Assembly (NCBI RefSeq): GCF_037975245.1
Contig: NC_092565.1
Span: 14,723,499-14,787,498, forward strand
DNA: 64,000 nucleotides
Source: Apostichopus japonicus
Taxonomy: Eukaryota; Echinodermata; Holothuroidea; Aspidochirotida; Stichopodidae
Reading direction: 5' to 3'
Shown: positions 4,460 through 38,700 of the stretch, one piece after another
Layout of the letters: the number at the start of each line of letters is the position of its first letter
Numbering within the stretch: the first letter of the stretch is position 1
Made by a program: the position numbers and the translations under genes
Notes under the pieces: generated by a model
What the model was told of the DNA's origin: nothing
What the model saw: only the letters and a program-made list of their open reading frames with translations
Database searches by the model: none

Positions 4460-4812
4460 CTCGGCGCTTTCGACACTATCTAAGCGGAACAACACCACAG
4501 GTTGGCGCGGAGCGTACAGCAATGTTTTGAGTAAAGATACTCCCTAGATCTCCGGAAATGACCCTTTCCGGGCCTTGCCAATTTGCAGATAAACGAAGAA
4601 CAAATAGGTGTCATCGCCATTTTGTCAGAAAATTACACAACAAAATGTGACAAATGTCAATAGGTATTTGAGAGCGCAATAAAAAAGTCAATAATCGCGA
4701 ATAAGTAAAAAGTTGTAAAAAGCTGAAAAGGGCGCCAACAGTCCATGTGAGTCCGTCAGGGGCCACCTCCCCCCCCCCCCCCCCCTCTGACTGTATGGAC
4801 GCTCCGCCACTA
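4460..4812 (-). mobile_element. hAT-type MITE, truncated copy
   Basis: This is an inverted, diverged copy of the element at 53132-53529. Reading the minus strand from 4812, it shares GTGGCGGAGCGTCCATACAG, TGGCGCCCTTTTCAGC, TTGCGCTCTCAAATACC, GACATTTGTCACATTTTGTT, TGGCGATGACACCTATT and TTCCGG-GATCTAGGGAGTATC with the other copy. The outer GC-rich end next to 4460 is rearranged, so the second terminal repeat is lost. A long C run at about 4768-4786 replaces the corresponding G/C tract. It encodes no protein. Confidence 0.85.
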
Positions 4813-10296: not shown

Positions 10297-12570
10297 ATGG
10301 CGAAGTTCATATCCGGCCTAGTTATAATGACTGTCATTGCCGTAGCATATGGACAGTGCCCGTCATCCTGTTCTTGTTTGTTTCTTCCGGTGAACCAGAT
10401 TCATGTTATCTGCATCGATGCCCAATTAAGTTCTTTTCCAGGCAACATACCATCTCAAACTACCTACCTATCCCTCGCGAATAATTCAATTTCATCAATC
10501 AACGCGAATGATCTTGCTGGGTTAGGAAACCTACAAATTTTGGACTTCTCGGACAATCAAATTGAAACAATTGACGATGACGCATTTCTGTCCTTAACAG
10601 AATTGGAAGAGTTGTACTTAGAAAAAAATGAATTAAAGTCATTTGGCCCTCAACACGTACAAAACCTGACAAAGTTGGTCATTTTAGATCTATCATCCAA
10701 TCCGTACCTTACTCTGGACGAATGTTTTCTCTCTCCGTTGGATAAACTGGAAACCTTGCGTCTCTCTGGAAGCCCCATCAATTTTGGACTTGATCTTTTT
10801 GGTAACGCAACATTATGTACCTCTTATCGATGTAACGCACTCTCAGATATGAGGTGCCATCTGCCCCTCTTAAAGGAGCTCGATATTTCTGAAACTTTAA
10901 CCAACGAGGTGCCCGCTGAGTTGTTCCTACTTACTCCAAACCTAGAGAAGCTCTCCTTAGCGAGGAATGGAATCACGTTTATTCCAGATGATGCCTTTGT
11001 CGGTTTGAATAGTTTGCAAGATCTCAGTTTAAATTACAACAACATGACCAATGTTAACCAAAGGACTTTGAATGGACTTGGAGGCCTGACAAAACTTGAA
11101 CTGGGTAATCGTGGACTTGTTATAGAAGTGGATATATTTGATGTACTGCCGAATCTTTCTGAATTATCTCTCACCTTGCTTGGTCAAGTTGTTATTGACT
11201 CTCTAGCTCCATCGGTGGCTAACACAGACGTTACAAAGTTGAACCTACATCACAACTTCCTTGTTTCTATACCAGCCTCGATGTCTCATATTTCAACAAT
11301 CACTTCTCTTGATCTTTCTCAAAACGCCATCACACATGTACCAGAACGAGAGTTTTCGTCCTCTTTAAAGGAAATCGACTTGAGTCACAACAATCTTGAC
11401 AGCTTGCACCAAGACGCTTTTGATGGTCTAAATCAACTAGAGACTCTTAAATTATGTTACAATGAACTGGCAATTGTTCCATCGAGTGTATTTGATCCGA
11501 TACCACTCACAACAACAATCTGTTTGGGGCAAAACCCTTGGGTGTGTAACTGCACGATGTTACCAATCATAGTTGACTCTCGACATCATACATTTCCTAA
11601 CCCTCAATGTTCATCCCCAACGGATTTAAGCGGACGGCCGTTCAGTGCTGTGAACGAAAATTATTTGAATTGTCCATCTTCGACAACTGCGACTTCACAA
11701 AAACCGTTGGTGACGACAAAATCACCTCCTGCCACAGGATCGAAACATACGACAAAAGCATTTCCCGCGACACGACTTATGACACAATACGTACCAACTA
11801 CAAGGCCTACGATAACACCGACAGCTACAAGAAAATCGAAGCATACGACAAAAGCATCACCCGCGACACGACCTACGACAAAATACGTACCATCTACAAG
11901 ACCTACTATAACACCGACAACTACAAGAAAATCGACACCTAGGACATCACAAACTTCTCCTAGTCCCTTTCATTCAACGTCACCAAGTTCTCAGCGACAT
12001 GAATTCACATCAACGCCATCAGCCAGTCGACAGATTACACGATACACAATTTCTGCATCTCCTGCTGGTGTTACCACCGACAACCAAACGACTATAGTCA
12101 TTATAATAACGGTGATCTGTTTCTTGTCTGTAGTTGTTACTTTGTTGACTATTGCAGTGTTTTGGAACATTTATGGAACAAGAAAAAGAACATATAATGA
12201 CGAGGGGCGACGTGTTGGTGACCACTTCAACGGTGGTGTCCCGACCACTCCTCCTCCAAGATATGAAAGCGTTCCGGAAGAAATATCACACATTTACCTT
12301 TCTCATGCTGCACAGGATGCACAGATTCATCATAATTATTTTGGTGAGAACGACAACGCTTCTGGAATTTACGACGACCATGGGATAACTCCACCTGCGT
12401 ATTCTAAGAACAATCCACTATACGAAAGAGGTTTTCCAACTGTTAATACGCTTTCAGATAGTGTCGCTGGACGTGAACTTGTGTCAATGGCAAATCTTCC
12501 CCATGACAATAATTCTGCCTATAATACTGCACCTGTTGAACCAGTATATATGGAGATTAAAGAAGGTTGA
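10297..12570 (+). CDS. LRR type I transmembrane receptor A (757 aa)
   Basis: A single open exon that I place as a cell-surface leucine-rich-repeat receptor or adhesion protein; no exact orthologue is recognised. ATG 10297 (AACATGG) is chosen because the frame upstream opens only on a GTG. Residues 1-20 are a signal peptide. Residues 21-459 hold an N-terminal Cys cap (CPSSCSC), about a dozen LRRs of LxxLxLxxNxI type with a Cys-containing insert (NATLCTSYRC), and a C-terminal Cys cap (NPWVCNC). Residues 460-599 are a Thr/Ser/Pro-rich, mucin-like stalk with two exact-length 32-residue repeats. The membrane segment is about 600-623. The cytoplasmic tail has two PPxY motifs (PPRY 653-656, PPAY 699-702), one NPxY (NPLY 706-709) and a C-terminal VYMEIKEG. 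There is no TIR or kinase domain, so it is not a Toll receptor. Ligand and signalling are unknown. Confidence 0.9.
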   Translation: MAKFISGLVIMTVIAVAYGQCPSSCSCLFLPVNQIHVICIDAQLSSFPGNIPSQTTYLSLANNSISSINANDLAGLGNLQILDFSDNQIETIDDDAFLSLTELEELYLEKNELKSFGPQHVQNLTKLVILDLSSNPYLTLDECFLSPLDKLETLRLSGSPINFGLDLFGNATLCTSYRCNALSDMRCHLPLLKELDISETLTNEVPAELFLLTPNLEKLSLARNGITFIPDDAFVGLNSLQDLSLNYNNMTNVNQRTLNGLGGLTKLELGNRGLVIEVDIFDVLPNLSELSLTLLGQVVIDSLAPSVANTDVTKLNLHHNFLVSIPASMSHISTITSLDLSQNAITHVPEREFSSSLKEIDLSHNNLDSLHQDAFDGLNQLETLKLCYNELAIVPSSVFDPIPLTTTICLGQNPWVCNCTMLPIIVDSRHHTFPNPQCSSPTDLSGRPFSAVNENYLNCPSSTTATSQKPLVTTKSPPATGSKHTTKAFPATRLMTQYVPTTRPTITPTATRKSKHTTKASPATRPTTKYVPSTRPTITPTTTRKSTPRTSQTSPSPFHSTSPSSQRHEFTSTPSASRQITRYTISASPAGVTTDNQTTIVIIITVICFLSVVVTLLTIAVFWNIYGTRKRTYNDEGRRVGDHFNGGVPTTPPPRYESVPEEISHIYLSHAAQDAQIHHNYFGENDNASGIYDDHGITPPAYSKNNPLYERGFPTVNTLSDSVAGRELVSMANLPHDNNSAYNTAPVEPVYMEIKEG
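11740..11935 (+). repeat. In-frame 96-bp tandem repeat in the stalk of receptor A
   Basis: Units start at 11740 and 11836, and a partial third starts at 11932, all beginning TCGAAxCATACGAC or a relative. Each encodes 32 residues of the pattern SKHTTKAxPATR then YVPxTRPTITPT. Expansion in steps of 96 bp keeps the frame and would lengthen the stalk. Confidence 0.93.
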
Positions 12571-13816
<1,246 letters not shown>

Positions 13817-14569
13817 TGTAGAGGAGAGACTGTTGTCCTTTCGTAACATTATCTGTGGATATAGTTTGACTTGTTCAACTGGTATAAGACTTACCTTGCT
13901 GTGATAGCTTTTAAGGTAATGTTCTCGCTCTCTCAAATTAAAATATATTTTCTATATTTCGCGAATGATATCCCGTTATGTACCAAGGACTTTCGGTACT
14001 TGTTATCAACTTGTGGGAGAAATGTATCCATTTTTTTACGAGAAGAGGTATGCACGGGAGGGGTGGGTCATGACTGGTTACATTAAGCAATATTTTTTGG
14101 GCAAATTTTAATTGCTTTAGAAACTCATTAGAAATTCGATACTTGCAGTTAGATCACATATCGATATCTGACTTTAGTTTTCCACTTTACCAAGTCATTG
14201 AATCAACTTCCATTTTTCAGTGGAAACTGTTTCCTTTTTCATTATTTTTTATTATAAATATTGCGATCAATTTAAAGGTTTAAGATATACTTTTGCGTTC
14301 AAACAGGCATTGAAGAATGGAAATGCAATAAAATGTCAGAACATTCAAATACCGTATTTCTCCATTTGTTGTATTCTTAGATGCAAATTTCGCAATATTT
14401 CTCCCATAACCATATAATCATAAAATTCCAATAAGTAGGCCTGGAGAAAAAGCTCTTCGTTTTTATATAAAAAAAATTATATATAGAATAGTAAACAAGA
14501 CATGGATAATCTCACAATAAATTATCCATGAATAGCATCAGCAATACGGCTATTATGGTCACCTATAAC
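13817..14569. other. Intergenic stretch without genes
   Basis: No protein-like ORF. A short part near 13965-14000 (GATATCCCGTTATGTACCAAG) resembles 6665-6695 (CTTATCCCGTTATGTGACGAAG), a further trace of the older local duplication. Confidence 0.5.
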
Positions 14570-14820
14570 GTTCGATGTTCTCGATTTACCCGCGATACGT
14601 TCCTCACATCTGTGTAATATTTACACTTGAGAAACTTCCCCACATATTTCCCGATTTCAACACGATCAGTAATATTTGCGAAAACAATACGCAATTAATA
14701 TATATCGGTTTAAGTATAATTAGTTTTGCCGTTTATGATAGTTGTATCATAGCAATGCGTAATATTATTATCAAACATTTTTCGAGGAAACTGCGTCGGC
14801 CAAAGTTTGTTTGATTGAGC
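14570..14820. repeat. Ancient duplicated block, downstream copy
   Basis: Diverged partner of 7200-7480; see that entry for the matching words. It lies upstream of the broken LRR paralogue, just as the other copy lies upstream of receptor A. Confidence 0.6.
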
Positions 14821-14978
14821 ACCATTACGGTGTATTTACAATAGTAATAGAATGTGGGTGTTTCTATGCATGTAAAGACGAATATCACTCCAGTAAAAGG
14901 CTAATAATTACGATACGAAATGTGGTCATAAATGTGAGTCTTTGACTAAAACACCTTTACTTTTCCTTAGTTTTATGG

Positions 14979-15340
14979 GGAAATGCTTGATAATTGTGTA
15001 ACACATATTTTGAAGTTAAAACTTGCAGCGATTCAGTATATGGACGTACAATGAGTACATAGGTGATTAGGGTTAGTCGGTCTGACATTTATATTAAAAT
15101 TTCTTTACTGATCTTACTTGTTTTCAGAAGAAATAGAAATGAAAGTGATAATCATTTCAGACTTCATATCCTCAGAAAACAGTGTGATGCTGAACCTATA
15201 GTTTTAAGTAGATACTTTTCTCATTGATATAATGTGACTATAACCCACTTTGCTTTCTATAAATCGAGATACGTTTATTTGAGACTTATTAACCCATATA
15301 AATCGCGGGATTATAAGTTTACACCACAGAGAGGTAACTT
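14979..15340. repeat. Direct duplication, copy 2 of 2
   Basis: Partner of 13459-13816. Small differences (for example AACACATATT for AAACATATT, GGGATTATAAG for GTAATTAAG) and no coding potential suggest a recent non-coding duplication. Confidence 0.92.
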
Positions 15341-15724
15341 CGTCGGCAATCTAAGGATGCTGTTCATCCTGTGTTCAGTTCATTACGTGAATACTTATTT
15401 CATATGAAATATGCTAGAGTAAAATTAGATACATTTGAATGTTTTTATTTGTATTTCACATGTGATTGTTTCAGAAGAAAAAATAGTGACACGATAATAA
15501 TAATGAAAACGGATCCTGATGCTCAATAAACCTCAGTTGAAAAGAATCAAGGAACTTTTCCTAGATCAATAGTAAACGTATTTTGAATAATATTGAGAAA
15601 GTTTAGTTAATATGTCTTATGGAAAGCATTTATCATGTCAATAATACAGTAAAATGTCTGAGCGTATGTCTCCTTCTGTGACAAAAAGATATAACATGAT
15701 CTGTATGGCTGCCAAGGTCACTTG

Positions 15725-16060
15725 ATGTTAAAACGTTTTAAGTTAGATGTTAATTTGCTGTTTATTTCTTTGTTCTGGACAGAAGTTCTCATGCGTTCGG
15801 CTTCACATGATATAATGAAGACGTTGAACATAAAATTTAACATGATAGTCCAATTGGCTATTAATATGATGAACTTTATATGCGAACTAGTTGTTATGAC
15901 TATCATTGCCTCAACAATTGGATGCCCATTATTTCTTCTTCATTTCCTTCGGAGGGCGATAACATGTGATCTGCATAAACGTCCACTTAACTTCTTTCCC
16001 CGACAATGTACCATCAATCTCTATCCCATAAAGCGTACCAAACTACACAAGTTCACGTAC
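15725..16060 (+). pseudogene. Broken 5' end of a third LRR receptor paralogue
   Basis: From the ATG at 15869 the frame reads a signal-peptide-like start, ELVVMTIIASTIGCP, which aligns with GLVIMTVIAVAYGQCP of receptor A. The next residues (RRAITCDLHKRPLNFFPRQC) align with NQIHVICIDAQLSSFPGNIP. Homology then fades by about 16060 and no LRRs follow. The LRR-cap cysteines are mostly lost. The upstream DNA 15725-15868 is also homologous, including the intron-end tract TCTTTGTTCTGGACAG. The open frame continues to 16174 without further similarity. A truncated relic is the best reading. Confidence 0.7.
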
Positions 16061-16062
16061 GT

Positions 16063-16461
16063 TTATAGCTTGTGGAGGTTTTCATACTGTTTCATATATG
16101 ATGAAGTTTTATGGAAATCCCCTAATTCTTTAGGTTTAATTATTTGTTTAATGACTGTCTTTAAGTCAATATAACAAACCCCTGATATCACAAGGTTCAT
16201 GTATATCCTGAAGCGACTATATGGCAATTGGCAACCAGGGTCGAAGTCCACGTTCCTTATGTGTGCAACAGCAGCAGCTCCGTGGTCATTAATTATTTGA
16301 ATTGTTTCAGGTTTATATGAAATGCGTCCGTATATGTAAGATGCATTTCGATGACTGCTTCCTCTCTGGCAGGTAAATTCAAGAAAAGATTTCCAAGTCG
16401 TGCAAAGTACAGAAACACTGAAGAGAAGAAGAAGACAGAAACTAGTAAGGATATTAGCCAA
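16063..16461 (-). CDS. Possible small secreted protein (132 codons), uncertain
   Basis: A minus-strand ORF begins with a good signal-peptide pattern (MANILTSFCLLLLFSVSVLC), followed by a stretch with several Cys (FTCQRG, FDPGCQ, SGVCY) and one NxS sequon (NAS). I recognise no family. It may be a real short gene, the first exon of a longer one, or chance. Its 3' part overlaps the last bases of the open frame of the opposite-strand LRR relic. Confidence 0.3.
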   Translation of the reverse strand: MANILTSFCLLLLFSVSVLCTTWKSFLEFTCQRGSSHRNASYIYGRISYKPETIQIINDHGAAAVAHIRNVDFDPGCQLPYSRFRIYMNLVISGVCYIDLKTVIKQIIKPKELGDFHKTSSYMKQYENLHKL

Positions 16462-16464
16462 TTG

Positions 16465-18300
16465 AATATAATATGTATTGTCAATTGATTTGTAACATTA
16501 ACAAGGCGATATCATTACTATTGCATATCACACATGCATGGTACGTGCCATCGTGTTATCATGAGCATTGCAACTATAGAAATTGTCATGTTTTCAGAAT
16601 ACCGCTGCAACCTTCATCGTTATAAACAAAAATTGCAGTTGATAAGAGGTTATCTAAAAGCTGTGAAAACATATTGTCGAGGAGAGGGGAGGTTGAAGGG
16701 GGGGGGGGTCGGTAGCTAGTATTATTGTGACAATTCTGCATATATTCCAATTGCGTATGAGGCCTCACTTTAGCCCTTGCCTCCCTCCCATTGGCGCCAC
16801 CACTGGTTATTTATTCAACTGAATATAAAAACGTCCACGTAATTTTTGTTTTGTAAACCGTTATGTCCGTCATTCTCATGGTTCGTTCTCGATAAATCAG
16901 TGGCAATCATCTATCTTTCATTAAATTGTACAGAAAGTTTATATTTGTTTATTTTTACGACTAACATGACGGGCAACCTACTAATTTAGTCCCATTAACT
17001 TTCTCATGATGGAAACAGTTATAATTCATCATTTACTGCCATATGAAGCTTCTTTTTTCATAATTAAAAAAAAGGGAAATGTGTGTGACATATATGCAGT
17101 TTTAGTCTAGTGAGAAATATATGCAAAATTGATAATTCGTAAGCAAGCTATAATGAGACAATCATGAAGTATACTGAATTAGGAATCACTTTGTTATGTT
17201 AATTCAATACTGGAAGGTATATAGGCCTTTGTTTCACTATTTCCAGATTATTGAGTTATTGTATGTAAATATAGATATTTTTTCAATGTACGTATTTTGA
17301 TAAGTTACTGCTTCGGTACTTGTCCCTCTGGAATAATTCCACGTAATGTTTACAAAAGGTTGTTTGATTGATATCAAGAACTGTATCCGTTATGGAAAGA
17401 GACACGTTTGAAGGGCGAGGGGCAAAGTGGTACAAGGTACACATGAAAGATTAAATATTAAAGTAAGGTATTAATACAAAATTCCTCTAGCACCGGGTGC
17501 TTCTTATTTCGAGATAATGTTAACGGCAGATAAATGTCCAAACCAAACAACGATCACATCTCAAAAAAAATAAAGAAAAAAAAAGAAAACAAGAAGTAGA
17601 GCAGTTTGATCTTTTCATTGTTACAATTAGCGTACGTCATACTGTGGACTTATATCAAGGGTACATTATTTTCCAAGCCAATATATAAAAATATATGAAA
17701 ATGAAAGACAAAGTTTAACTTACACACATAAAGTAATGGTGACTACATAAATCCTTAGTGTACAGTACACTAAGATGTTGTGTGTTGGTCATTCCTACTC
17801 TAAATCATATAACTGTAACGTATAAATTGTAGGCGTGATAAAACTGATATTGGACACCTGTTTTATTCATAATGATATCCATTTGCCCAACCCATTGCAA
17901 AATATCATTGCAATGTTGTCTATTATTTGTGACCTGTGGTCTAAGTTTAATCCTTCATAAATATGATCCCCGTTGCTTTTCTTTTCATGCTCTAATACCC
18001 TTTGAAGTCAAGTTTGATTTCATCTCTCCTCTAGATGAAATCGTTGAATCCTTACTCCATTTTGTAATTGTTTACACTGCTCCTCATTGCTGCATCTGTT
18101 CAGCACCTTCCAACATGTTTTGTCCTCTGATTCAACTTGATTTGGTGTTTTGACCAATTGTCTGGTTTACGTTTGTTATCCTGTCAGCAATTTACAGGAA
18201 ATAAAGTTCAATGACAACGAAAATTATAATTGTGAAAGATTGTTACTTTATATTCCAAAAATATCAGTTTGGACAGTAGTTATTTGTTTCAATTCTCTTT
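16465..18300. other. Intergenic stretch between LRR relic and receptor B
   Basis: No protein-like ORF. A G run occurs at about 16699-16708, and GGCGCCACCACTGG near 16793 resembles a hAT terminus without a partner. The rest is AT-rich. Confidence 0.5.
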
Positions 18301-18417
18301 GTTTCAGATCTTGCAGAAGAATACACCCATCAATTTTGCAAAGGAATATCACGCGTTGAACAGAAACTACTATTTTAATTAACGAAATTCACAGCCTGGT
18401 CCGATAACAATAGCAAT
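18290..18417 (+). other. Probable 3' splice site and 5' UTR of receptor B
   Basis: A T/C-rich tract CTCTTTGTTTCAG ends at 18307 (a second AG follows at 18316), leaving roughly 100 nt of leader before ATG 18418. By analogy with receptor A, an upstream non-coding exon is likely but was not located. Confidence 0.5.
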
Positions 18418-20751
18418 ATGACAAACGCAGGTATAGGACCAACCCTGCTCTATTTTGTGGCTATCGTTGCCTTAGCACATGGATGCCCGTCATCATGTTC
18501 TTGTTTGTTTCTTCCGGTGAACCAGTATCATGTTATCTGCATCAATGCCCAATTAAGTTCTTTTCCAGGCAACATACCATCTCAAACTACCTACCTATCC
18601 CTCGCGACTAATTCAATTTCATCAATCAACGCGAATGATCTTGTTGGGTTAGGAAATCTACAAATTTTGGACTTATCTGACAATCAAATCGAAACAATTG
18701 ACGATGACGCATTTCTGTCCTTAACAGAATTGGAAGAGTTGTACTTAGAAGAAAATGAGTTAAAGTCATTTGGCCCTCAACACGTACAAACCACGGCAAA
18801 GTTGGTCATTTTAGATCTATCATCCAATCCGTACCTTACTCTGGACGAATGTTTTCTCTCTCCGTTGGATAAACTGGAAACCTTGCGTCTCTCTGGAAGC
18901 CCCATCAATTTTGGACTTGATCTTTTTGGTAACGCAACATTATGTACCTCTTATCGATGTAACGCACTCTCAGATATGAGGTGCCATCTGCCCCTGTTAA
19001 AGGATCTCGATATTTCTGAAACTTTAACCAACGATGTGCCCGTTGAGTTGTTCCTACTTACTCCTAACCTAGAGAAGCTCTCCTTAGCAAGGAATGGAAT
19101 CACGTCTATTCCAGATGATGCCTTTGTCGGTTTGAATAGTTTGCAAGATCTCAGTTTAAATTACAACAACATGACCAATGTTAACCAAAGGACTTTGAAT
19201 GGACTTGGAGGCCTGACAAAACTTGAACTGGGTAATCTTGGACTTGTTATAGAAGCGGATATATTTGATGTACTGCCGAATCTTTCTGAATTATCTCTCA
19301 CCTTGCTTGGTCAAGATGTTATTGACTCTCTAGCTCCATCGGTGGCTAACACAAACGTTACAAAGTTGAACCTGCATCACAACTTCCTTGTTTCTATACC
19401 AGCCTCGATGTCTCATATTTCAACAATCACTTCTCTTGATCTTTCTCAAAACGCCATCACACATGTACCAGAACGAGAGTTTTCGTCCTCTTTAAAGGAA
19501 ATAGACTTGAGTAACAACAATCTTGACAGTTTGCACCAAGACGCGTTTGATGGTCTAAATCAACTAGAGACTCTAAAATTATGTTACAATGAACTGGCAA
19601 TAGTTCCATCGAGTGTATTTGATCCGATACCACTCACAACAACAATCTTTTTGGGCAAAAACCCTTGGGTGTGTAACTGCACGATGTTACCAATCATTAT
19701 TGACTCTCGTCATGATACATTTCCTAACCCTCAATGTTCATCCCCAACGGATTTAAGCGGACGTCCGTTCAGTGCTGTGAACGAAAATGATTTGAATTGC
19801 GTATACACTACGATCAAGAACCCGACTGTGACTACCATTTCCGGTACAACGGCGGCAACGGTAACGACCACGCCAACTGCCAACTCAACACCTAAGATGA
19901 ATCCAACGTTGATGAGTAGTGAAGTGATTACTGGCGGTAGACATACGTCACCATTTGTACATGAACCTTCCACATCAAAGTCGACAACTAAATATTCAAG
20001 GACGACGGTGCAGGTTGTGACTTTTGCAGCATCAGACATACCTTCAGCATCCCATAATGAAAACAACACGATTTTGATTGTCTCGATTGTCATGTCTCTG
20101 CTGTTGGTGGTAGTTGCTGTTTTGACTTTTGTATTCATTTGCAATTGCAAACGATCAATCAAGACGAAACGAGCAGCAGTTGTTGTTTACAGTACGTCAA
20201 TGCCACACAATGTTCCTTCGTCGCAAGATCTTCCTCCGGATTACGAGAGTATTCTGCCAAATCCCCAAGTAACTGTTGAGAATCTCGATTACAGGGAACA
20301 CACAAACATCTTGGTGAATGTTGCCCCTATAGATATTACTCATCCCATAACAGCCAACAATGAAAGTTTCAACAGAGCTCAATGCAATCCTGGGCAAAAC
20401 GGACTCTGTGAATCTAAGGCTCCAAACGGAGCAGTCGTTCATCACTACTTAGGGGCGACTCACGTCGATTTAAATACGAACCAAAACACCAGCTTTTTAT
20501 CCTCAGAGTTAAACGAGAAGGCCGAATTAAGCAAAATGTATGAAGACAAAGAATACGCTTCTTCCCTTCCACCACCGTTTCGTCCACCATCCACTGGTCA
20601 GTACTTGACACCTGATGCTGACAAAGATGATGGAATAGAGATCAAGGCGGAACCAAAAACCATATTGGTTGGTAGCGTGTCGATGGGTGGTGTGGAAGAT
20701 CCAACATATGAATGTATTCCAACTGATCTCCTGTATGACGAACCTAAGTAG
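18418..20751 (+). CDS. LRR type I transmembrane receptor B (777 aa)
   Basis: A single open exon, paralogue of the gene at 10297. The signal peptide is residues 1-22 (different sequence from A). LRR ectodomain residues 23-461 differ from A by about 23 of 439 residues with no indel. The following Thr-rich stalk 462-550 is unrelated to A and lacks A's 32-residue repeats. The membrane segment is about 552-575, followed by a basic stop (CKRSIKTKR). The 200-residue tail carries one PPxY (PPDY 606-609) and Tyr motifs near the C-terminus (DPTYECIP, LLYDEPK). An N-linked sequon present in A (QNLT) is lost here (QTTA). It is probably a surface receptor with the same or similar ligand face as A but different intracellular wiring; function unknown. 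Confidence 0.9.
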   Translation: MTNAGIGPTLLYFVAIVALAHGCPSSCSCLFLPVNQYHVICINAQLSSFPGNIPSQTTYLSLATNSISSINANDLVGLGNLQILDLSDNQIETIDDDAFLSLTELEELYLEENELKSFGPQHVQTTAKLVILDLSSNPYLTLDECFLSPLDKLETLRLSGSPINFGLDLFGNATLCTSYRCNALSDMRCHLPLLKDLDISETLTNDVPVELFLLTPNLEKLSLARNGITSIPDDAFVGLNSLQDLSLNYNNMTNVNQRTLNGLGGLTKLELGNLGLVIEADIFDVLPNLSELSLTLLGQDVIDSLAPSVANTNVTKLNLHHNFLVSIPASMSHISTITSLDLSQNAITHVPEREFSSSLKEIDLSNNNLDSLHQDAFDGLNQLETLKLCYNELAIVPSSVFDPIPLTTTIFLGKNPWVCNCTMLPIIIDSRHDTFPNPQCSSPTDLSGRPFSAVNENDLNCVYTTIKNPTVTTISGTTAATVTTTPTANSTPKMNPTLMSSEVITGGRHTSPFVHEPSTSKSTTKYSRTTVQVVTFAASDIPSASHNENNTILIVSIVMSLLLVVVAVLTFVFICNCKRSIKTKRAAVVVYSTSMPHNVPSSQDLPPDYESILPNPQVTVENLDYREHTNILVNVAPIDITHPITANNESFNRAQCNPGQNGLCESKAPNGAVVHHYLGATHVDLNTNQNTSFLSSELNEKAELSKMYEDKEYASSLPPPFRPPSTGQYLTPDADKDDGIEIKAEPKTILVGSVSMGGVEDPTYECIPTDLLYDEPK

Positions 20752-26800: not shown

Positions 26801-29800
26801 AACTGAAGGAAGGGGGAATGGGTGAAATGCACATGAGTTGTGGGAATATAAAATATTGCAATGCCCACATCCAGGCACCAAATTTGCCCTTTGAATTTCA
26901 TTTCTTAACCATGAGTTTCAACCCATTGACAGGTTTGTGCTGTTTTAGCTGCCATTACAGAAGTCATCAGAGATCAAGGAGGTAAAGAAACAGAAACAGA
27001 GTATTTTGGAGCTTTGGTAAGTTTTCCTCAATTTTACTAAACTTTGATGAACTTCAGCACCAGCTACATGTTTGCAGAAAACCATATAACCCCTCCCCCC
27101 CACCCCTCTCAAAACAAAAGGAAAAATGTTTCATCACGAAATAAAGAGATACTACACCACATAAATAACCAAGACATCAACGTACTGTGAGCATGTGCAG
27201 AGGTGCATCAACAGACAGATCAAAAGTTCTTATCATCCAGTGAAATTTTGAAAAAGTGGCCTTTTGTTCGAAGCTTTTATGCTGAACATCTCGGAGAGCT
27301 TTAATGTAATTACTCCACCCATAGCTTTTAAAGCTTAGTTGGGCTTAATTTTTGATACTGTTTGTAATTATTTAGAACATGCTTGAGGATAGTGCTATCA
27401 TACCCACAGGTTGAAATGCTGAATATTTACCCTAGTCATGAATGCCAGTCCTCGGTGATGATGATGCATAATTAGTTTGTTTAATTATATTTTAGATGAC
27501 AGCAATGGAAACCATGGAAACAGAAGAGTCCCTAACTGCTGTAACCTTTTTGTTGTCTCTAATCATCAAACGGTATGTACTGCTACTTTAAACACACCTA
27601 GATTGATCAGCACCTCAACATTAGAAAACTACATAGCAGCATATCATGTCATTTGAAAGATCACTCAGAGTAGAAATAGCTGATATCAATTAATATATAC
27701 TTTGCATTCTTACAAAGCAGAAAACTCCTATATCTATTTTGATTTTCAACAATAATATCCACCATAATGGATGTAAATGTATGCTTATTTAGCAAAAGAT
27801 TTTATTTGATGTCAACTCCTTGGTACAAGCCAAATTGTTAGTTTTAAAATCCAGTGTTTTTGTTAAATGCTAATGAAGCTTTCAAACGTTCTCTTACTTT
27901 ACTCATGACACTAGGGAACCAATGACAAATCCCAACACCTTTTGGCAATACAAATTCATAACAAATATGTTGTTTTGGATCACAAACTTCTTTACCATTC
28001 TCTTATTGGCTCTTGGTTGGCTCTAGGGTGTGGCTTGACATTATGAGAAAAACCTGAGATGTTACAAAAAGGGACAATTTTGTAAAAACTTTAAAATGAT
28101 TTGAAATGTAACTTGCACTGATGGTAGGTTGCTGTGAGAAGTTTATAACATCGAATTTATGTCTGTACTGCACGTTATCATAAATTCTAATATTTAGAAG
28201 AGAGGTTGCAATTATACCTCCTCGTTTTACAGACTTATTAAATGTTTTTAACTGAGATCAGAAACAGCACTTATAAGAATTTTCTAGTGACAAACAATTT
28301 GAATTTTTTTGGTAGCAAAAAATATTTGACACTGCAAGATGTAAACCCACATATCAGTATTTCCACCCTAACACAAGATGTGGTTGATTTAATATAACCT
28401 TTGAACCTACACCAGGAAGTTGGATCACAGTAGGGGGTCTGTGATGTCATCTGGGTAAATGCTATTCAAAAGCTTCACTAAAGTTATTTTAATCTCTTTG
28501 TTGATCATTTGGAATCTTTTCTTATCTGTCAAAGTTCTCTACACTTTGAATTTCATCAAAATGTATCTTTTCTGTAGAAATATATGAATGATAGCCAAGT
28601 TATAAAGAAAAACAAAGGCAAGCTGCATTTTCAGCTGAGTTGCCCTGATGACATTTTATTAAATTGTTTGACTTTTCATTAGTTTGATAGAAAAAGCTTT
28701 CTTAAACCAATTAAACTGGCCTATCAGTGATTGCTATTTCTGGCCAGACCACATTTGTTTGTTGACTGCTTTCTCCTACTATAATCATTTGATATTATAC
28801 CAAATAACCTGAATTTCCATAAATGTCTGTTAAGAATACTTTTCCTGCTCAACTGGAAGACTTGCATTTATTCAAAACTCTTCTAATTATTCCTCTCTTT
28901 TTGCACCTTTTCTTGGTAGTGTTCCTCCTCCAGTTTTAAAGTTGAAGTTTTCAGAGGTCAGCAAATCATTATCCGGATTGCTGGCATCTCATTCAAGTGG
29001 CAACAACACAGCTCTGGTCAAATCCATCCTCTCTTGTTTCGGTAACCTTCTTCGATCTCAAGAAGCATCGGCCTGGAGTAACCCATCCACTCTAAACACA
29101 TACCAGGGAATCCTAAGCTTTACAACTCACAGTAAACCAAAGGTAGGCATTTTAAGACAGCTGTTAAACTCCTTATCCTCCCACCTATTAAACCCCAAAT
29201 CCTCCCAAATATGGAGTATTTACTTAAAACCAGCACCAGCAATTTAAGTATCCTAGTGAAGTTTATATTCAGTTCCTTCATGTTATTTGTGAGATATTGA
29301 TTCTTAAAGTTGTCCCTTTTTAACAAAAAGTGTAAACTTAAAGCAAACAACAAGGTGTGATTGGATAGAATGTGAGTATCAAGTAGCTCCAAATTCAGAT
29401 CGTAACAAGCTGCAAAGCTTGTAAACTTCAAGGAAATGTGGTATCTTCATATTAATGAACCATTTATTTTGGAGGTAGAGACACTGGATGTAAAATTTTG
29501 ATGAAAACACAAAAACCATATTGCCCAAGATTTTTAGATGGTTTTTTTTTGACAGATCAAGAATGATTTAAACCTACACATGTGTATTTCAATAATTCAT
29601 AACAGAACATTTCATTTGAACCCTGTTTTTTTTGTATCGATACCAAACTATGACATCAGTTTAGGGTATTTGTGTTAGTAATGGTTCTGGTTGAAGCACC
29701 AAAACACATTCCTTTGAGGTGGCTTTCACCTTAAGCTGTAAGAAAGTACACCTTGTTACACCTGCTCATGGCTTGAGCCCTGTAATCAGCTCCTAGATTC

Positions 29801-32800
29801 AATTTTTGTTTATCACTTTTAATATCTCTGTTGTTATGTACTCTGTACTTTATTATATCCTTCTTTCTTTTCATTACTGAATCTGGAATACATACAACAG
29901 TTCAGACCATGTAGTTAATAAATATTGTTTACAATTATTTGTATTTGTGATATATTCCATGCCAGTCACATCAATAAGTAAGTTTACTAAACACACTCTT
30001 CTCTTTCGTCAGTCAACTTTGGTATCAATCTGACCTCATCTGTATCATGTCATTTATAAGACAATTCAAATATAAGAACATGAAATGTGTACATATGATG
30101 AGCTTCCTTAGATGATTCTTTCAAAGGAGAGCAAAAGTCTGTTTCATCAATTTTGATATAAATAAATTATGATTTAAATATATGTTATTTTGATCTTCTT
30201 CCTAACTTACAAAATGTCAGAGCTATGGTTGTAGGTTCAGTACCTGGAAGGAGAACCCCGTTCTTCCCCCCCCCTCCCCCCTCTCCCTTTCTCTTTTCTA
30301 TATTTGCCTTCTTTATATAGTTTCCTCGTTAGTTTTCCAATGTTGAGGTGCTGATCACTCTATTAGACAGCTATACATAGTTGGGATCAATTTGAAACTT
30401 TGAAAGCTATGCTATTGAAGGGCTATTCAGGGATTGAGGTTTTACAGAACATATTTTGCAAAAGTCCTTTCCTTCTCTTTCTTTTCAAGGTGAGGAAAGC
30501 TGCCCAGAGTGCAGTGGTGTCAATTTTAATGGGAAGCTCGTTCACGCTTGGTGGAATTTCCTCATCCACTCACCCAGCAGCCCAAACCACAGCTAAGTTT
30601 TGTATCCAGCAAGTAGAAAAACATGGAGGTTTGTTAAAATATCTTATATCTGTTGTTACTTGTTACTTGTGCTATATTGTATAAGAAAGTAGAACAAACC
30701 CCAAGGAAAGATGGTACGTACTCTAGTTGGATAGAATATATACTGAAACCTGGAGCTAAGTGTAGGCTTTTCATTGTACCCTTGTCCCAGGGCACTAACA
30801 CCACAGACAGAGATAAATGGAACAAAGACCCTCTCTGGAACTGCACATTTCTAATTACATACTGCATACTGGTCAAGTGGTTGTTAATGGACTTGGCAAT
30901 CTAAGGGATTGTAGGTTGGAGTCTTGGCCAGATCATGTATATTGTTGTGTCCTTGCGCAAGGAACTTGCCTCAAGTGGCTTTATTCACCTAGTTGTATAA
31001 ACGCTGACATCAGAGGCAACTTATGAATGTAGTTGAGTGTACAGAGTTATGGCTGAACCCGATGGGAGGGAAGCCCCCAGGGTAGTGCTCTGTGAGTGAC
31101 TAGTGCCCTGTGAGTCACTACTTCAATTGTGTACACTTTGGTGTTTGGGTGCGACAAGTTTCCACTAATCGGACTACATTGTACTTTTATAAAGTATAAA
31201 AACCCTGTTAACATGAATACATGATAACTCAAAAAAGATTGTATGTGGATCCAACTTACCTGTTAATTGGTCCCCAAATAGAAGGTTTGTGTTATAGATA
31301 GTATTTAAGAAATATAACTGTATACTATATGTATATGTAACTGTTAATCCATAAACATATAACAGGTCCTTATGCCTCACTCCATTTTACACGATGGTTG
31401 GTGTGGTATGACTGACAAGAGGGTCAGCTGACTATAGCAGTATAGCAGTAAGTAGTGTCATGGTTCCCCTGAGCTGGCTAGGCTACTCTATAATAGCATT
31501 ATATAGTGTTAGGATCTGTAACACAAACTTAATGAAAATTCAATGTATCATAGTTCTGAGTGCAACAGTTTTCAACTTTGACCTCTACAGGATCTGGAGA
31601 GGCTACCGCCACGTGTCACATCCTCACTCTTCTGCAATCAGTGATTTCAAGTTTCCCTAAATCATCTCTAAAAGAGACATGCGAAACAATTTTAAAGGTC
31701 ATGACGTTAAGCAATGTGGTAAGTATCACCTTCATGAAAATCTTATATACACTTTAAAGACAGTGATTCCAACTGAAATGACCACATCACTATCTAACAT
31801 TTTATCCACAGTAAACTTCTTTTTTTTTTGTACGAATCTTAAGTCTGGATATTGTAACCTACTCTGAGGCTCACGTAATGTCAAAAAAAGGTGACGTTTC
31901 CGGGGAAAGCTAGATTTTTGGTAAACCTGTAGGAGAGTGTCTTTAAATATACTCCAATCAACTACAAGTTTAGTTTGAGTTGCACTCAACTCAGCCAAAA
32001 AGCAAAAAGCTGCTCAAAGTGACTTTGTGTTCTCTTCTCTGTAGGTGGTGTCTGCTGTAGCTATGAAGGCGCTGCACAGTTTGGTTTCCATGGATACCAG
32101 TCTTGATAACTTTCCACCAGAGCTCAATGCCAAGTTGATCAATGCTCTTTATGACTTCCAGCCGTCAACAAACGACAGCCAACCATCGCAGGCTTGGCTT
32201 GCAGTCATGCAGGCTGCTCATGTGAACTTGTTTCGGTGAGCTGAAAGATTATGGGCCAAAACACCCCTTTTATGTTAATTAAAAGATATCCTATGCAGTT
32301 ACATTCTTGTTTAGCTTGAATGCAGCCTCCAAGAATTTTTGGCTGAAAGCTCTAATTTGATGGATCTTGTTATTGGTTCTTTAAAGTTTCAACAATAACA
32401 TTTAAAAAAAGAAACATTAAGTTATAGTGATCGATATTAAATCCATATTTACTTTATGTATAAACTTATTAACAGTTGTTGCCCAGAAGGAGTTGACCAG
32501 TGTGTGCTATTATAATTCAAGGAAATATGGGGTTACATTGCTGTTGTGCTGTTGCCTGTTGTAGTTCTTAGGGAAAAATAACTGGTTTTATAGATGCAAT
32601 ATTAACCACTCCTGAATGTATGTTAATGGATGTGTGTATTTACTTACCTTCAGCTTGCTACCTTGCCCTGTGCATGTTTCTGTCCGTAGGTCAAAGGTAT
32701 AAGATAAATTAATGTTTTTCACGACCACTGATAAAATGTTGAACCCTATGTGCTGGCTCTATGAAATGTAGTATGTACAAATCAAGAGACACATCCTGTA

Positions 32801-35739
32801 TAGTCCATGAAAAGGAATACATTGGGCCTACCATGTACAGTGTAATGTACCTCTGCCAATTGGTACATCTGGAGTTTTTGTTTATACAGAGTTATGTGTT
32901 TAGCCAAAATGAAAACCTTAGAGTTTACAATTTAAATATCAGTCTGACACCTCTGTCTTTCTTTGATCTCCTAGGAGTAACCAGAGTTTGTGCTTAAACC
33001 ATCTCCACCGGTTGTTCCAGGTCTGTATGGCCTACCTTCTCTCAGAAAAGGGGGAAATTGCTGTAGCATCAGCAAATGCTATGAAGGTAAGCTTAAGTGA
33101 GCGTGTCTAAAAATGTTATAACGGTCAGGTTAAAATTAAGAAATGAATAATGCAAGTCAATGTATCTTTGTTTAGGGGTCCAACAAATTTTCTCTTTAGG
33201 TCTTTAGGAATCTTTACTCACCAATCTTGCTTTCTCTACATTCTTAGGCCGTACTCAAGGAGTGTGTCGGGTCACTCTCTGATGATGTTTCAGGTCAAAC
33301 CAAGGAACAGAATCCTGTCATGAAGATCTTTTCACACGTAGAGGGAGGTCTTTCTTATCAATACCATGCCTCTTGGGGATTAGTGCTGCAAACACTCTCA
33401 GTGTTTTTTGAGGTAAGTTTCTTGTGATAAAGAGAAGAAATGGTTCCATTTTGTGATGAGAAATGCATAGCTCTCCATGGAGTAAAATTAGGACAGTCAG
33501 CCATCTGCATGTGGTTCATAATCATTACACATTCCATTAAAATCATGAAAAGTGTGGCAGTCCTCTATCTTAGGAAGTGAAAGGAAAGTGTGTCCCCTCC
33601 CCTGGTAACTTGTTGAGCATTTTTGGTAAAGGCAACCGTAACAGTTGCACAAAAAAAACACCTCTGCAAATGAAACATAATGTCAGTGATTGTCAAATTG
33701 AACCCATTTTCTGCCATGGTCCAATTAAGTTGAGAGAGTGGTCGGGATAATGATATGCCAGTATGCCTACACTGAAAACAGAAGGAATCCATGCTTTGCC
33801 AGTGTTCAATCATAAACATCACAGACAGAGAGTCAACTATGAGGGTGCGTCAATATTGGAACCATTACTTTGTGGTTGCCATGGATACATCGGCATCTGT
33901 TTTTGACATTTTCAACACACATCGAGAAATTTCCTTTTTCTGTTTGTTTCTTTGTTGACATACCATCCTTGACATGAGTGTTTTCCACAGACAAAAATGC
34001 TTAACAGGGCTCATATCTGTCAGATTACAGGAAGGAAGTGAACTTGTGTGATTTCATTGTCCCAGATAAGAAAGTTGGCGTTCTTTTAATTCTCATGTCC
34101 ACAGGACCCAGAACATCCTTGAACTGACATAATATAAAGTGGTAAATACCTATAAAGTTTTGAAGTCTTGTGTTCAACCAATGAATAGTGTGATCAAAAC
34201 AGGAAAAAAAACCCAGATATTTTCTTCAACAATTAAAAATGTTTCTGACTTGAATTCTCATGTTTTTTATTGGTCAATCAGGTCTGGGGGAAAGCAGGCC
34301 ATCAGTACATGCACAAGTGTTTGCAGACCATGTGTGACTTGAGAAGCACTCACCACTTTGCCTTCATCAATGAAGTTGACAAATGCATCGGGGAAGCGAT
34401 TAAGACGATGGGGCCGAGGATTGTGTTGGATGCTGTTCCGTTTCAGATTACAGGAGAAGAGTAAGTGGTTATATTTCAGTGGTTATATTTCAGTGGTTAT
34501 ATTTCGGTACAAAAAGCCAAGTAATGTGCGTTGAATCAACAATTGGATTGTTACATAAACATTTCACTTAAACAAGACTTGTATTGGCACATAGAGAATT
34601 TATTTTATTACAGGAATTTTTTAGTGAAAAATATGTATGTATATTAGATCCTCCTGCAAGCAGGAACTCGCAAAGAAGCCTCATAGGCTTTTCAAAGCCG
34701 CAAGCTGACCGAAGTCAGTCTCTTACATTCATATAATTTAACGTCCATAATTATGAATTGTTAATTGTCAACAACTCTGTAACTGGACGACATACATTAA
34801 TCTGGGAGTGACTCGAACCGGGGACCTTATGATTGAAAGGCACCGGCGTTAACCACTGAGCTAACACTCCACTAATATGCTCACAGGAATGTGTACAGAC
34901 TTAGCATACGGCTGTGATTAAAAAAAATCGCTCAAATAACAAATATCTGAACAACATATTATGAAGAAAACCGAGTTAGGGAAGTCTGGAACGTTTTTAA
35001 CTCTTCAAAAGATTGCCAACTTGCAACTTCACCGAAAAATTTCCAACTAAATCACTATTTTACTTTCAGAAATTTGAACTTTCCTCACTGTAGTGTAGCT
35101 TGCTAATGATAGCATCCCTGCAGTCCCCAAAGTGCCGCGATGACGTCACAGCGTTCATCGTTCTCCACAATATATATTAGATTAAGTTGGTGCGATGTTA
35201 AAAAATTCACTTCTCCTGAATCATAGGATGAAAAATCCCCAAACTAGGACTGTGGCGATGAAAAAATTATGGAGTTTTTTTCATATACCCAATAAACTGC
35301 AACTAAAGAATTCCTTTAAGCACAGTTTGTCTTATCCTGCCGATATTGTCTATTTTTGTCTTGTTATGATTTGTTTTTGTACTGGTCTATAGTACATGTA
35401 GTGTTGTGTCTGAGTTAAGCAAGTATTTTAGGGCACAGTCTTTCCATCATAGAAGATTTAGCACAACTGATGAAGTCTTTCATTTTGCTTTTATGATCAG
35501 GCAGCAGTGTACATGTAATACTTCCGCTTTAGAACATTGTTGGACAGATGATAGCATCTATTACAATGTAATACGAGAGTTTTGCTCGATAAAGTATTTA
35601 TCTTCTTTTCATTTTAGAGATAATTACGACTTTCCAAGGAGTTGGTTGGTTCCAGTCATCCGTGACAACGTGTGCAATACAGAATTACAGTTCTTCACTA
35701 AATTCTTTCTTCCACTGGCTGCTAAATTCAAGATCAAGT
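23820..35739 (+). CDS. RRP12: RRP12 exons 1-12: basic N-terminus and first HEAT/NUC173 part
   Basis: Encodes residues 1 to about 586. The N-terminus is Lys/Arg-rich ([24 protein letters not shown]), typical of the family and likely nucleolar-targeting. Exon 2 has [20 protein letters not shown], the family start of the helical repeat region. Exon 3 has [13 protein letters not shown]. Exons 5-7 carry [20 protein letters not shown] and VMTLSNV. Exon 8 has [20 protein letters not shown]. Exons 10-12 ([33 protein letters not shown]) match the conserved NUC173 region. Exon 2 must start at 25467, because the three AG sites just downstream give an immediate stop. Confidence 0.93.
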
Positions 35740-38700
35740 GTAAGCCCATGTTAACTACGAGGCATTTATTTTTATGTAGAAATATGTCAGAAGCATTAAA
35801 ATTCCATTGTTTGGCTTGAAATAACTAGGTGTTATCAATCAGTTGACGTTAAAAAGAAGGTATTTTTTTTGTAAAATACTTATTTCAACAGATAGTTTAA
35901 TATGACAAATTGTCAAGAAAAATTGGGAAATTAAATCTGGATATAGGAAAATGCTGCACCTCCCCAAAACCTTACTCTGAGGTCTAATAAGTAACGCTGA
36001 TTGTTTTTTTCATTCCTTGGTAAGAATAAACAAAAGCAATGTTGATCAAGTCAGCATTCCATATGCTATGTTTCCATTTCGATGCTCTTCCATATTAAGT
36101 ATTTGATATTAAGTAATTGGTGAAAGAAAGTCCTGCTATTTAACTATTTCTTAATCGAAGTTAATGGTAATCAAACAAGGTGTCCATTAATATTTTGTGC
36201 TTGGCCAGCCCAATGTTCTTCAAATGTCATGATTATCTCCGCATATTAGATTTTAACATTCAATCATTTCAGTTCTACATTATGTATTTTTGTATCCTTT
36301 GGAGGGTCACTTTCACTAACAAGAACAAACTGAAATCTCATTTTCTCCGATCAGCTCTTGAACTTAAACAGAATAATCGTGAAGTCGAGGCAAAGACCTA
36401 CGATGTTCTTCAAGTCCAGCTTTGGTCTCTCTTTCCGGGATTCTGCAAGAGCCCCACCGATGTCATCCCGGCGTTTAAAGGAATCGCCAAGATACTTGGA
36501 TCAGCTCTCGGTGACCGTAAAGACGTCAGGTCAGACATTTGCTCCGGGCTGAGAAATATCATCAAGAGTAACGTCGACAACGGTGAGTATTCGATGTCAT
36601 TTTCTGATAATTAATTGATGTTAATTAATTAATGTTTGATCCGACCAGATTAATGATATGCTGTGGTGTATTTTGGTGTCGTCCAGGGCAAACAGCTATA
36701 TTGGATTTTATGCAGTAGCAAGAAACTTGGTCGTTCACTCAGTGCGGTGATATGTAGTTCTTATGAAATAGCTATGAAGATTGTTAGTAGATTCTCCAAA
36801 GATGGATTTTGATGGTTTTTCCTTTGGTCTCGAGATGACTTTCTTGCTGGAATACAAAACTATTCTTGAGATTTTCAATGTGCTGACAGCCGGGAATGTT
36901 TTCAAGTTTTTTTGACTTCTCTTTTACAGAAAGAAACAAGACAGAACTGGCTAGATTTGCCAAGAATTTCCTCCCAATCTTGTTCAATATTTTCACCAAA
37001 GAAAATTCCGAAGGGAACAGATCGGTGCTTGCTGTTTTGGAGACGATTAAAATTTTCCTGCAGATAACAGATGTCAAGGTAATGTGGAGGGGGTTCGTTT
37101 GGTTGCCATCTTTAAACCGATAGTTTATTGAACTTTCCAAGAAAACTTTCCAAAGGATTTATGCAATGATGGCATCACAACTCACCTCTGTTAAGTTTAT
37201 GTTCCATGTCTTAGTTTTGGTTAAATTTTTGTTTGAGAAACATTTAGCTGTTTATTGGTGGTCACTCTTCAGATTTTAGTATCTATACATTTGTACAAAG
37301 AAAACATGAGGAGTTAATGTAAGATGTTTGATATAACATACTGTACAGAATGTAGTGGTATGGAAATACAGTTCTATCACACACTATGGTACCAAATTGC
37401 TTGTCTCTATTATAACAACAATCCTTGCTGGGTTTTAAGAATATTTGGGGGGAGAGGGGGGGTGAGTATTAACTGTTACATCTGCTGGTTCCATGTACTT
37501 TGATGAGTATCCATTTCTAATGTGTGTATTCATCCATTGGATGTGTGTGTATTAATGTAAAAACATTTGTAATTACATATACTCATTTGGTATACTTTTT
37601 GTTACCTTCCCTTAACTGGTGAATTACACTGGATACATATTCATAACCATATTGTTTTACCAAATCCTTTTATTACCAAAGTCCCTTTTATTGATATAAT
37701 TTTGATCCACAATGGTACAATTTTTTTTTTTTTTATTCAGCTTGTCGACGACCTGGTTACTCGTGTCTGTGGTAAGTTCAGCTCAGGAGAAGAGTCCCAG
37801 CAGCCTCCACTACTCGACCTCTTAATCGCTCTTGCTCCTTACGCCAGTTCTGGAAAACTCTCTCAAATATTCCAGGAAGTCAGTCCATGTTTTGAAGTAA
37901 GTCTTTTTGTGAATAACAATTGTATTTTTAAGTTTTTAAGTTTTCTTGAAAAAGAATTATGTAGAAAATGATGTTTTTCTTTATCTATAGTCACTTTTTC
38001 TTCTTTTTTTGTGGGGGGGGGGGGGACTTTTTCTTCACAATGATGTTAGAATACTCAGAGCTGTTCTAGTTAATGGCGTGTACTACTTGAGACAATTTGT
38101 CAAACTTAACTGCTGACCATTTGTGTTTTTCCAATGGATTAATATACTGATTTGCATTATAAATTTAGGGATATTCATTCTAAATGAAAACGAGTTTCAA
38201 GATTGTACACTGCAATGCTATCATGCCTTATAGCTATGCACTTTATACCTGTGTATATACGGAGAGCTTTAAGGAACACCAATAACAGAAAGTCATCGAC
38301 ACTCTTTCTGATTACATGTCTCCCTTTCTTAGCTGCTTTTAGGTTTCATTGATAATATCTGCTAATATAAAGTGGAAATAGTTTCAGAGACTAACCACAC
38401 TCTCTTTGGCTTCATACCGATTCATCGAGAGAAATGTTTTGATCGCTTTTGACAATCTTAAGTCACAAATTATTGTCCAGGGATAAAAATATGTCTATGG
38501 TGGTGTTTTTTCTTTGATTACCTTTAACCAATTGAACATATAATCTTTCAATGATTAAAGGATTTTTACATCTTCTCTTCACAGAGCACAAATCACTCTT
38601 TACAGAAGAAATCTTACCGAGTCTTAGAGGAGATATGTTCAGGCCAGTCTGATGCATGCAGCAAATTCAGAGAAGACAATATAGAACTGCTGGAAAAGAA

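Follow-up and report, generated by a model that had tools for sequence, protein, structure and literature searches.

Two old tandem leucine-rich-repeat receptor genes of a sea cucumber, with an ectodomain probably homogenised by gene conversion

How can two neighbouring receptor genes carry almost the same recognition domain when nearly everything around it differs? The question is raised by two leucine-rich-repeat (LRR) genes, here called A and B, in a 64,000-nucleotide stretch of the genome of the sea cucumber Apostichopus japonicus (NCBI RefSeq assembly GCF_037975245.1, contig NC_092565.1, positions 14,723,499 to 14,787,498 of the forward strand). This whole stretch is called the window below, and positions are counted from its first letter. 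The two genes stand in tandem in the same orientation, with a start-to-start distance of 8.1 kb and a truncated third copy between them, and each encodes a type I membrane receptor (Table 1). A first-pass annotation of the window had seen in their pattern a fit with gene conversion or domain grafting. We consider it highly probable that A and B arose by an old tandem duplication and that gene conversion between the two neighbours recently homogenised their ectodomain. Conversion limited to the ectodomain is well supported, because silent sites are homogenised too, the signal peptide is old, the flanks cannot be aligned, and the third copy gives conflicting histories inside and outside the block; grafting was not shown.

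The shared ectodomain and its limits

The two ectodomain segments had been described as equal in length and about 97% identical, with roughly 40 differences, and this description is borne out: both measure 1,317 bp and align without gaps, with 1273/1317 positions identical (96.66%) and 44 different. The differences fall at codon positions 1, 2 and 3 in the proportion 11/11/22, include no insertion or deletion, and alter 23 of the 439 residues. Identity is even along the block, at 95-100% per 99 bp. Three N-glycosylation sequons differ (residues 42 and 103 carry one in A and none in B, residue 291 in B and not in A), so that the two ectodomains are not identical in display. Two further patterns were sought and set aside: the residue differences are not concentrated on the LRR strands, as 7 of the 23 lie in the assigned strand heptads, which make up 24% of the ectodomain, and several separate tracts within the block are not claimed from a longest-run test that gave P=0.03 for all sites and P=0.18 for silent sites only.

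Where does the similarity end? A self-comparison of the whole window returned a single match between the genes (10328-11672 against 18458-19799), and a permissive blastn of the two regions returned the same one. Similarity indeed stops after the last cysteine of the LRR cap, as had been annotated, for the next 100 nucleotides (nt) cannot be aligned (394/2000 shuffles reach the A-B score). The same holds for the 5' flanks (1341/2000) and the 3' untranslated regions (1831/2000), and identity extending equally into flanking DNA, which would have spoken for simple duplication, did not arise. The signal peptides, previously called loosely similar, are divergent and yet homologous as DNA, with 37 of 57 bases shared and 0/2000 shuffles reaching their score; compared as protein alone they give weaker evidence of homology (48/2000).

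Nonsynonymous (dN) and synonymous (dS) divergence, estimated by the Nei-Gojobori method (NG86), follows the same limits. The ectodomain has dN 0.025 and dS 0.065 (dN/dS about 0.4-0.5), the signal peptide dN 0.629 and dS 0.587 over 19 codons, and the post-ectodomain part, in a forced alignment, dN 0.808 and dS 2.827. Third-position identity separates the ectodomain from the post-ectodomain part with P=1e-76 (forced alignment) and from the signal peptide with P=6e-6, and mismatches in the signal peptide lie far above the ectodomain rate (Fisher P 3.6e-14). Selection at the protein level cannot account for low silent divergence that is confined to the block.

The third copy offers a further view of this history. 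It consists of two matching pieces in different frames, and aligns to A from the 5' flank through the signal peptide to the first LRR cap, where it ends. Among the signal peptides, A and the fragment share 42/57 bases, A and B 37/57, and B and the fragment 34/57 (0/2000, 0/2000 and 1/2000 shuffles, respectively). Over the initial ~95 nt of the ectodomain, A and B agree at 94/98 positions, A and the fragment at 66/93, and B and the fragment at 69/93 (Fisher for A-B P=5e-7). The 5' flank of the fragment is homologous to that of A (0/2000) and borderline with that of B (56/2000). The ends and the ectodomain of the three copies thus give different histories, which fits a split of the three genes first and homogenisation of the ectodomain between A and B later. 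The pair shows two marks of domain-limited conversion: high identity, silent sites included, limited to one segment, and older common descent in the adjoining signal peptide and the third copy, the tails being suggestive only.

Copies and comparable receptor pairs in the genome

Genome searches covered the 671.58-Mb A. japonicus assembly in 35 contigs. At the DNA level, with simple repeats and very common words skipped, the ectodomain was found in two places, genes A and B; at the protein level it gave 151 matches, with A at 100%, B at 95% and the next best at 35% identity (96 of 333 candidates scored). The same ectodomain joined to further tails, as the first-pass annotation had envisaged, was therefore not found in the assembly, and neither tblastn nor blastn detected a further copy in the 120 kb before the window or the 110 kb after it. 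Over the same range a check for a variable-lymphocyte-receptor arrangement, which concerns germline DNA only, found A and B to be intact germline open reading frames (ORFs) with no similar stretch nearby. The membrane segment and tail of A matched itself and one chance-level place (E 0.87), those of B matched themselves alone, and so a donor was found for neither tail. One scan of viral contigs gave no relative.

To what extent is the contrast within A/B peculiar to them? We examined nine LRR-receptor pairs, A/B included, of which eight entered the segment test and one (L046/L034) was profiled only. Pairs were taken from the list of ectodomain protein matches where two matches sat close together, except L029/L035, which lie 8.3 Mb apart and came from the relatives fetched. 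The fetched stretch stops short of the C-terminus in L045 and L042, and probably also in L036 and L047. Three of the nine (A/B, L036/L037 and L044/L045) combine a homogenised ectodomain with a diverged stalk, membrane segment and tail, a proportion that is not an unbiased rate, since ORF lengths were visible when the pairs were chosen.

The remaining six comprise four even pairs, one nearly even and one profiled only. Identity in the ectodomain and in the post-ectodomain part is 91 and 93% nt in L029/L035 (third-position Fisher P 0.72), 96 and 95% in L038/L039 (P 1), 98 and 95% in L040/L041 (P 0.41), and 95 and 96% in L047/L048 (P 1); these four are recent whole-gene duplicates without an ectodomain contrast. 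The old pair L042/L043 has 66% in the ectodomain and 50% behind it (P 0.033), and L046/L034 is uniformly old, at 41-53% nt throughout. L042/L043 matches A/B closely in the signal peptide (58 and 58% nt) and the membrane segment (60 and 60%), with 48% in the tail against 45% in A/B; the ectodomains stand at 66% against 97%.

The tandem pair L036/L037 (G000:C19:19717300-19719700 and 19727000-19729400, 9.7 kb apart) has ectodomains 98.1% identical with dS 0.065, followed by a post-ectodomain part at 68% with dS 0.70 (113 of 267 codons aligned; P 2e-14). The identical block of this pair includes the signal peptide, the 5' flanks are weakly similar (1/500 shuffles), and homology is plain in both the stalk and the membrane segment. 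The L036 tail is long, contains tyrosines and is probably cut by the stretch edge, and the L037 frame reaches its stop no more than about 20 residues from the membrane segment, while sequence beyond that stop still resembles L036. Judged from these frames, the two might possibly be a signalling receptor and its decoy.

The tandem pair L044/L045 (L044/L050 and L045/L049; G000:C17:33823900-33827000 and 33831000-33835000, about 7 kb apart) has an ectodomain identity of 88.5% nt that ranges from 63 to 100% per 20 codons, a patchiness that suggests several conversion tracts. Its signal peptide and post-ectodomain part both stand at 43% nt (P=4e-10 and P=3e-14, respectively), and neither the 5' flanks (153/500 shuffles) nor the tails (704/1000) can be aligned. 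The L045 tail carries a repeated motif (RKRTPNKESKNTGYPNSEAKSPS).

Tail ancestry and competing explanations

Are the tails of A and B related? They had been annotated as unrelated, with stalk, membrane segment and tail not alignable. The latter is true of the tails as DNA; as protein, weak signs of old homology appear. The former is not shown: the signal peptides share ancestry, and a PPxYES[V/I] motif occurs one residue apart in the two tails. Local protein alignment of the whole C-terminal part reaches the A-B score in 13/2000 shuffles; for the membrane segment the figures are 24/2000 (global) and 210/2000 (local), for the tail alone 754/2000 (local), and for gap-permissive global alignment of the tail 20-141/5000, depending on settings. 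PPRYESV begins at tail position 30 in A and PPDYESI at 31 in B, a placement within 3 positions that arises in 1/1000 shuffles. The wider pattern PPxYE[ST][VIL] arises in 2/20000 and 4/20000 shuffles of these tails, and the six frames of the window contain no other instance of it. PPxY was absent from all ten other LRR genes read, several of those reads lacking the full tail; the PPDY present in L042 lies outside the membrane. Among 45 real-tail pairs A-B ranks 3 and 2 by gap-permissive global alignment, and the tails of the old tandem pair L042/L043 come first in all four rankings. Common descent of the A and B tails is thus probable but unproven from their sequences: the real-tail controls support it in part, and the overall homology is suggestive.

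Several observations weigh against this reading of the tails, or against conversion as such. By local alignment A-B ranks only 13 and 22 among the same 45 pairs; under a strict global setting 176-295/5000 shuffles reach the tail score and the reversed tail scores above the real one, and at the gap-permissive settings the reversed tail comes close to it. An equally good motif match somewhere in the tails occurs in 6/200 shuffles, so that only its position makes PPxYES[V/I] unusual, and the 45% nt identity of the tails hardly exceeds the 43% of L044/L045, whose tails show no homology. As to conversion, the post-ectodomain figures for A and B derive from a forced alignment, the third copy is short and decayed, and all comparisons lie within one species' genome. 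Choice of the pairs was not blind, since the differences in ORF length within L036/L037 and L044/L045 could already be seen, and L045 has no ATG before the cap in the open frame read, its C-terminal end being cut by the fetched stretch.

Conceivably, the ectodomain was instead copied onto an unrelated membrane-tail gene, so that the two tails would be of different origin. This domain graft would agree with tails that are unalignable as DNA and weakly alignable as protein, with their low local ranks, with a forced tail identity near that of an unalignable pair, and with the L044/L045 tails, which do not align either. It is unlikely all the same. An older homology links all three signal peptides (A, B and the third copy), which implies that B owned this gene's 5' end before the ectodomain was homogenised; a relative of neither tail was found elsewhere in the genome; the shared motif stands at nearly the same position in both tails, PPxY being absent from the other LRR genes read (several without full tail); and L036/L037 show clear homology of stalk and membrane segment.

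Recent duplication of a whole gene, followed by very fast change of its ends, would readily explain a tandem, same-orientation pair with a 96.7% block. We regard it as very improbable, as the signal peptides exceed the ectodomain mismatch rate so strongly, the 5' flanks and 3' untranslated regions do not align, and the four recent duplicate pairs keep a post-ectodomain part as similar as the ectodomain. Just as improbable is an assembly or haplotype artefact that pasted one ectodomain at both places: 44 sites differ, the frames are intact with dN/dS below 1, two other pairs, diverged to different degrees, show a similar pattern, and the assembly is consistent with the published PacBio HiFi and Hi-C assembly, as far as the available part of its description goes (PMC10344927). 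Purifying selection alone, holding the ectodomain constant in old paralogues without sequence transfer, would suit a dN/dS below 1 and is scarcely tenable, being contradicted by silent sites (the ectodomain has a dS of 0.065, the signal peptide next to it one of 0.59).

How might ectodomain-limited conversion between A and B have come about? We envision an ancestral one-exon LRR receptor gene that gave rise to tandem duplicates A and B, plus a third that is now truncated between them, and a long period during which signal peptides, flanks, stalks, membrane segments and tails diverged. Much later the ectodomain would have been reset to near identity by non-reciprocal recombination between same-orientation neighbours; that recombination, rather than another copying route, did this is our inference. 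The tract would reach only as far as homology does, stopping at the signal peptide in one direction and at the repeat-rich stalk in the other, and would therefore coincide with the LRR domain despite the absence of an intron at that edge. Rapid turnover of low-complexity stalks, such as might be reflected in a 96-bp duplication within the stalk of A (11739-11850 against 11835-11946, 87.5% in self-comparison), and of signal peptides could fence the tract to the LRR domain. The three homogenised pairs might then represent three stages, with a post-ectodomain part that is plainly homologous in L036/L037, present in traces in A/B and beyond recognition in L044/L045. Selection may hold the two receptors to a common ligand even as their outputs differ, and one recognition module on different tails, as first suggested for this locus, could be a route to receptor diversification. 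As the genes are one-exon, exon boundaries cannot account for tract edges lying at domain edges, which makes the question of what fences a conversion tract directly testable.

Gene architecture and known receptor systems

Both frames are intact, and the Pfam scan found LRR families alone. Each protein has a signal peptide, a cysteine-capped LRR array, a stalk and a single membrane segment, as expected of LRR type I membrane proteins, the signal peptide and stalk being assigned from a reading of the sequence. The Pfam scan found no TIR domain in either gene, so they do not qualify as Toll-like receptors. Strands in the ectodomain are spaced about 24 residues apart, and an AlphaFold model, which served solely to back the solenoid reading, places strands at LRR spacing with a mean predicted local distance difference test score (pLDDT) of 68.3 and poor caps. 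The nearest solved structures by sequence, among the best 60 of 349, are general LRR proteins, e.g., acid-labile subunit, LGR4/5, LINGO type and LRRC15.

Table 1. Layout of the two receptor genes and the intervening third copy, in window positions
Feature	Position	Strand	Basis and remarks
Gene A, LRR type I membrane receptor, 757 aa	10297..12570	+	single open frame from ATG to stop; Pfam LRR_8 (E 4.4e-51), LRR_4, LRR_5, LRR_1
A signal peptide	10297..10356	+	sequence reading; older divergence from B (37/57 aligned bases)
A ectodomain, homogenised block	10357..11673	+	N-cap, 15 LRR strands (authors' reading), C-cap
A stalk, 139 aa	11674..12090	+	sequence reading; Thr/Pro/Ser-rich
A membrane segment	12091..12165	+	no charged residue
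A cytoplasmic tail, 134 aa	12166..12567	+	PPRYESV at 12253-12273; also PPAY, NPLY, YMEI
Third copy, truncated	15635..16015	+	5' flank, signal peptide, first ~95 nt of ectodomain
Gene B, LRR type I membrane receptor, 777 aa	18418..20751	+	single open frame from ATG to stop; LRR_8 (E 3.8e-48)
B signal peptide	18418..18483	+	sequence reading, alignment with A
B ectodomain, homogenised block	18484..19800	+	alignment with A
B stalk, 89 aa	19801..20067	+	sequence reading
B membrane segment	20068..20142	+	no charged residue
B cytoplasmic tail, 202 aa	20143..20748	+	PPDYESI at 20233-20253; also YECI

Between the genes lie two direct repeats of ~360 bp (13459-13817 and 14979-15339; 94% identical, 1.2 kb apart), the first adjoining a TA microsatellite. 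Downstream of the receptors, 28834-36611 holds exons of an RRP12-like gene (Pfam HEAT_RRP12_N, RRP12_HEAT). Farther on are a cluster of overlapping direct repeats at 53851-56024 (about 75-92% identical), adjoined by a segment (53133-53470) with an inverted copy at 4463-4811 (89%), and, at 59815-61539, a long short-period tandem repeat with many overlapping self-matches, an apparent unit of about 24 bp and several open frames on both strands. Rfam and tRNA scans of the window gave no matches.

Do A and B form a paired receptor? Their ectodomains are near-identical (416/439 residues, three sequons differing). Neither tail, however, contains an immunoreceptor tyrosine-based inhibitory (ITIM), switch (ITSM) or activation (ITAM) motif, and neither membrane segment a charged residue; on the grounds of the missing motifs the pair cannot be counted among activating/inhibitory paired receptors, although A and B may work as a pair that shares one binding face. 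A broader idea, which we hold to be doubtful, is that the genome runs a general paired-receptor scheme, in which tandem LRR genes share a recognition ectodomain through repeated conversion while their tails are free to become long, short or lost, L036/L037 being a signalling/decoy case and A/B and L044/L045 older versions. If true, one ligand would be read by several outputs or by a decoy.

Comparable cases come mainly from vertebrates, and we draw here on the available portions of the cited papers. The mammalian TLR1/TLR6 genes are likewise tandem LRR receptors of which one part is homogenised by conversion while others diverge (PMC2077338). There, the converted portion comprises LRR 16-19, the C-terminal cap, the membrane segment and most of the TIR domain, with divergence in the N-terminal ectodomain, whereas in A/B it spans the entire ectodomain, with diverging tails and no TIR; the authors of that study, in the portion available, offer no clear explanation for the conserved tract boundaries. 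Siglec-11/16 resemble A/B in being neighbours (converted regions about 9 kb apart) with a near-identical ectodomain, kept so by repeated conversion, and different outputs, but they are multi-exon lectins with immunoglobulin (Ig) domains and known ITIM and adaptor-linked signalling, unlike LRR proteins with one coding exon (PMC5701461). EMR2/CD97, which are EGF-TM7 proteins, carry a near-identical, conversion-maintained extracellular part on different membrane parts, as A and B do, and PILRA/PILRB are inhibitory and activating counterparts; unlike A/B, both pairs are mammalian (PMC2077338). CEACAM ITIM/ITAM pairs (PMC2832619) have like ectodomains, and Xenopus XFL pairs (PMC2413239) identical ones, on unlike membrane or tail parts, again as in A/B; these are vertebrate Ig receptors, however, with signalling classes defined by features not found in A or B. 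For invertebrates, the available portion of a paper on amphioxus LRR receptors (PMC10199209) describes no such case, and by title and abstract we found no report in the open-access literature of gene conversion, or of similar ectodomains, among LRR receptors of echinoderms or other invertebrates. Events of this kind are known from the accessible literature: ectodomain-limited conversion that produces receptors sharing a binding face but differing in output is described for vertebrate Ig receptors and, in another layout, for TLR1/TLR6. That three of the nine LRR-receptor pairs examined in a sea cucumber show it suggests that evolution arrived at this solution in an invertebrate too, and in a different protein fold.

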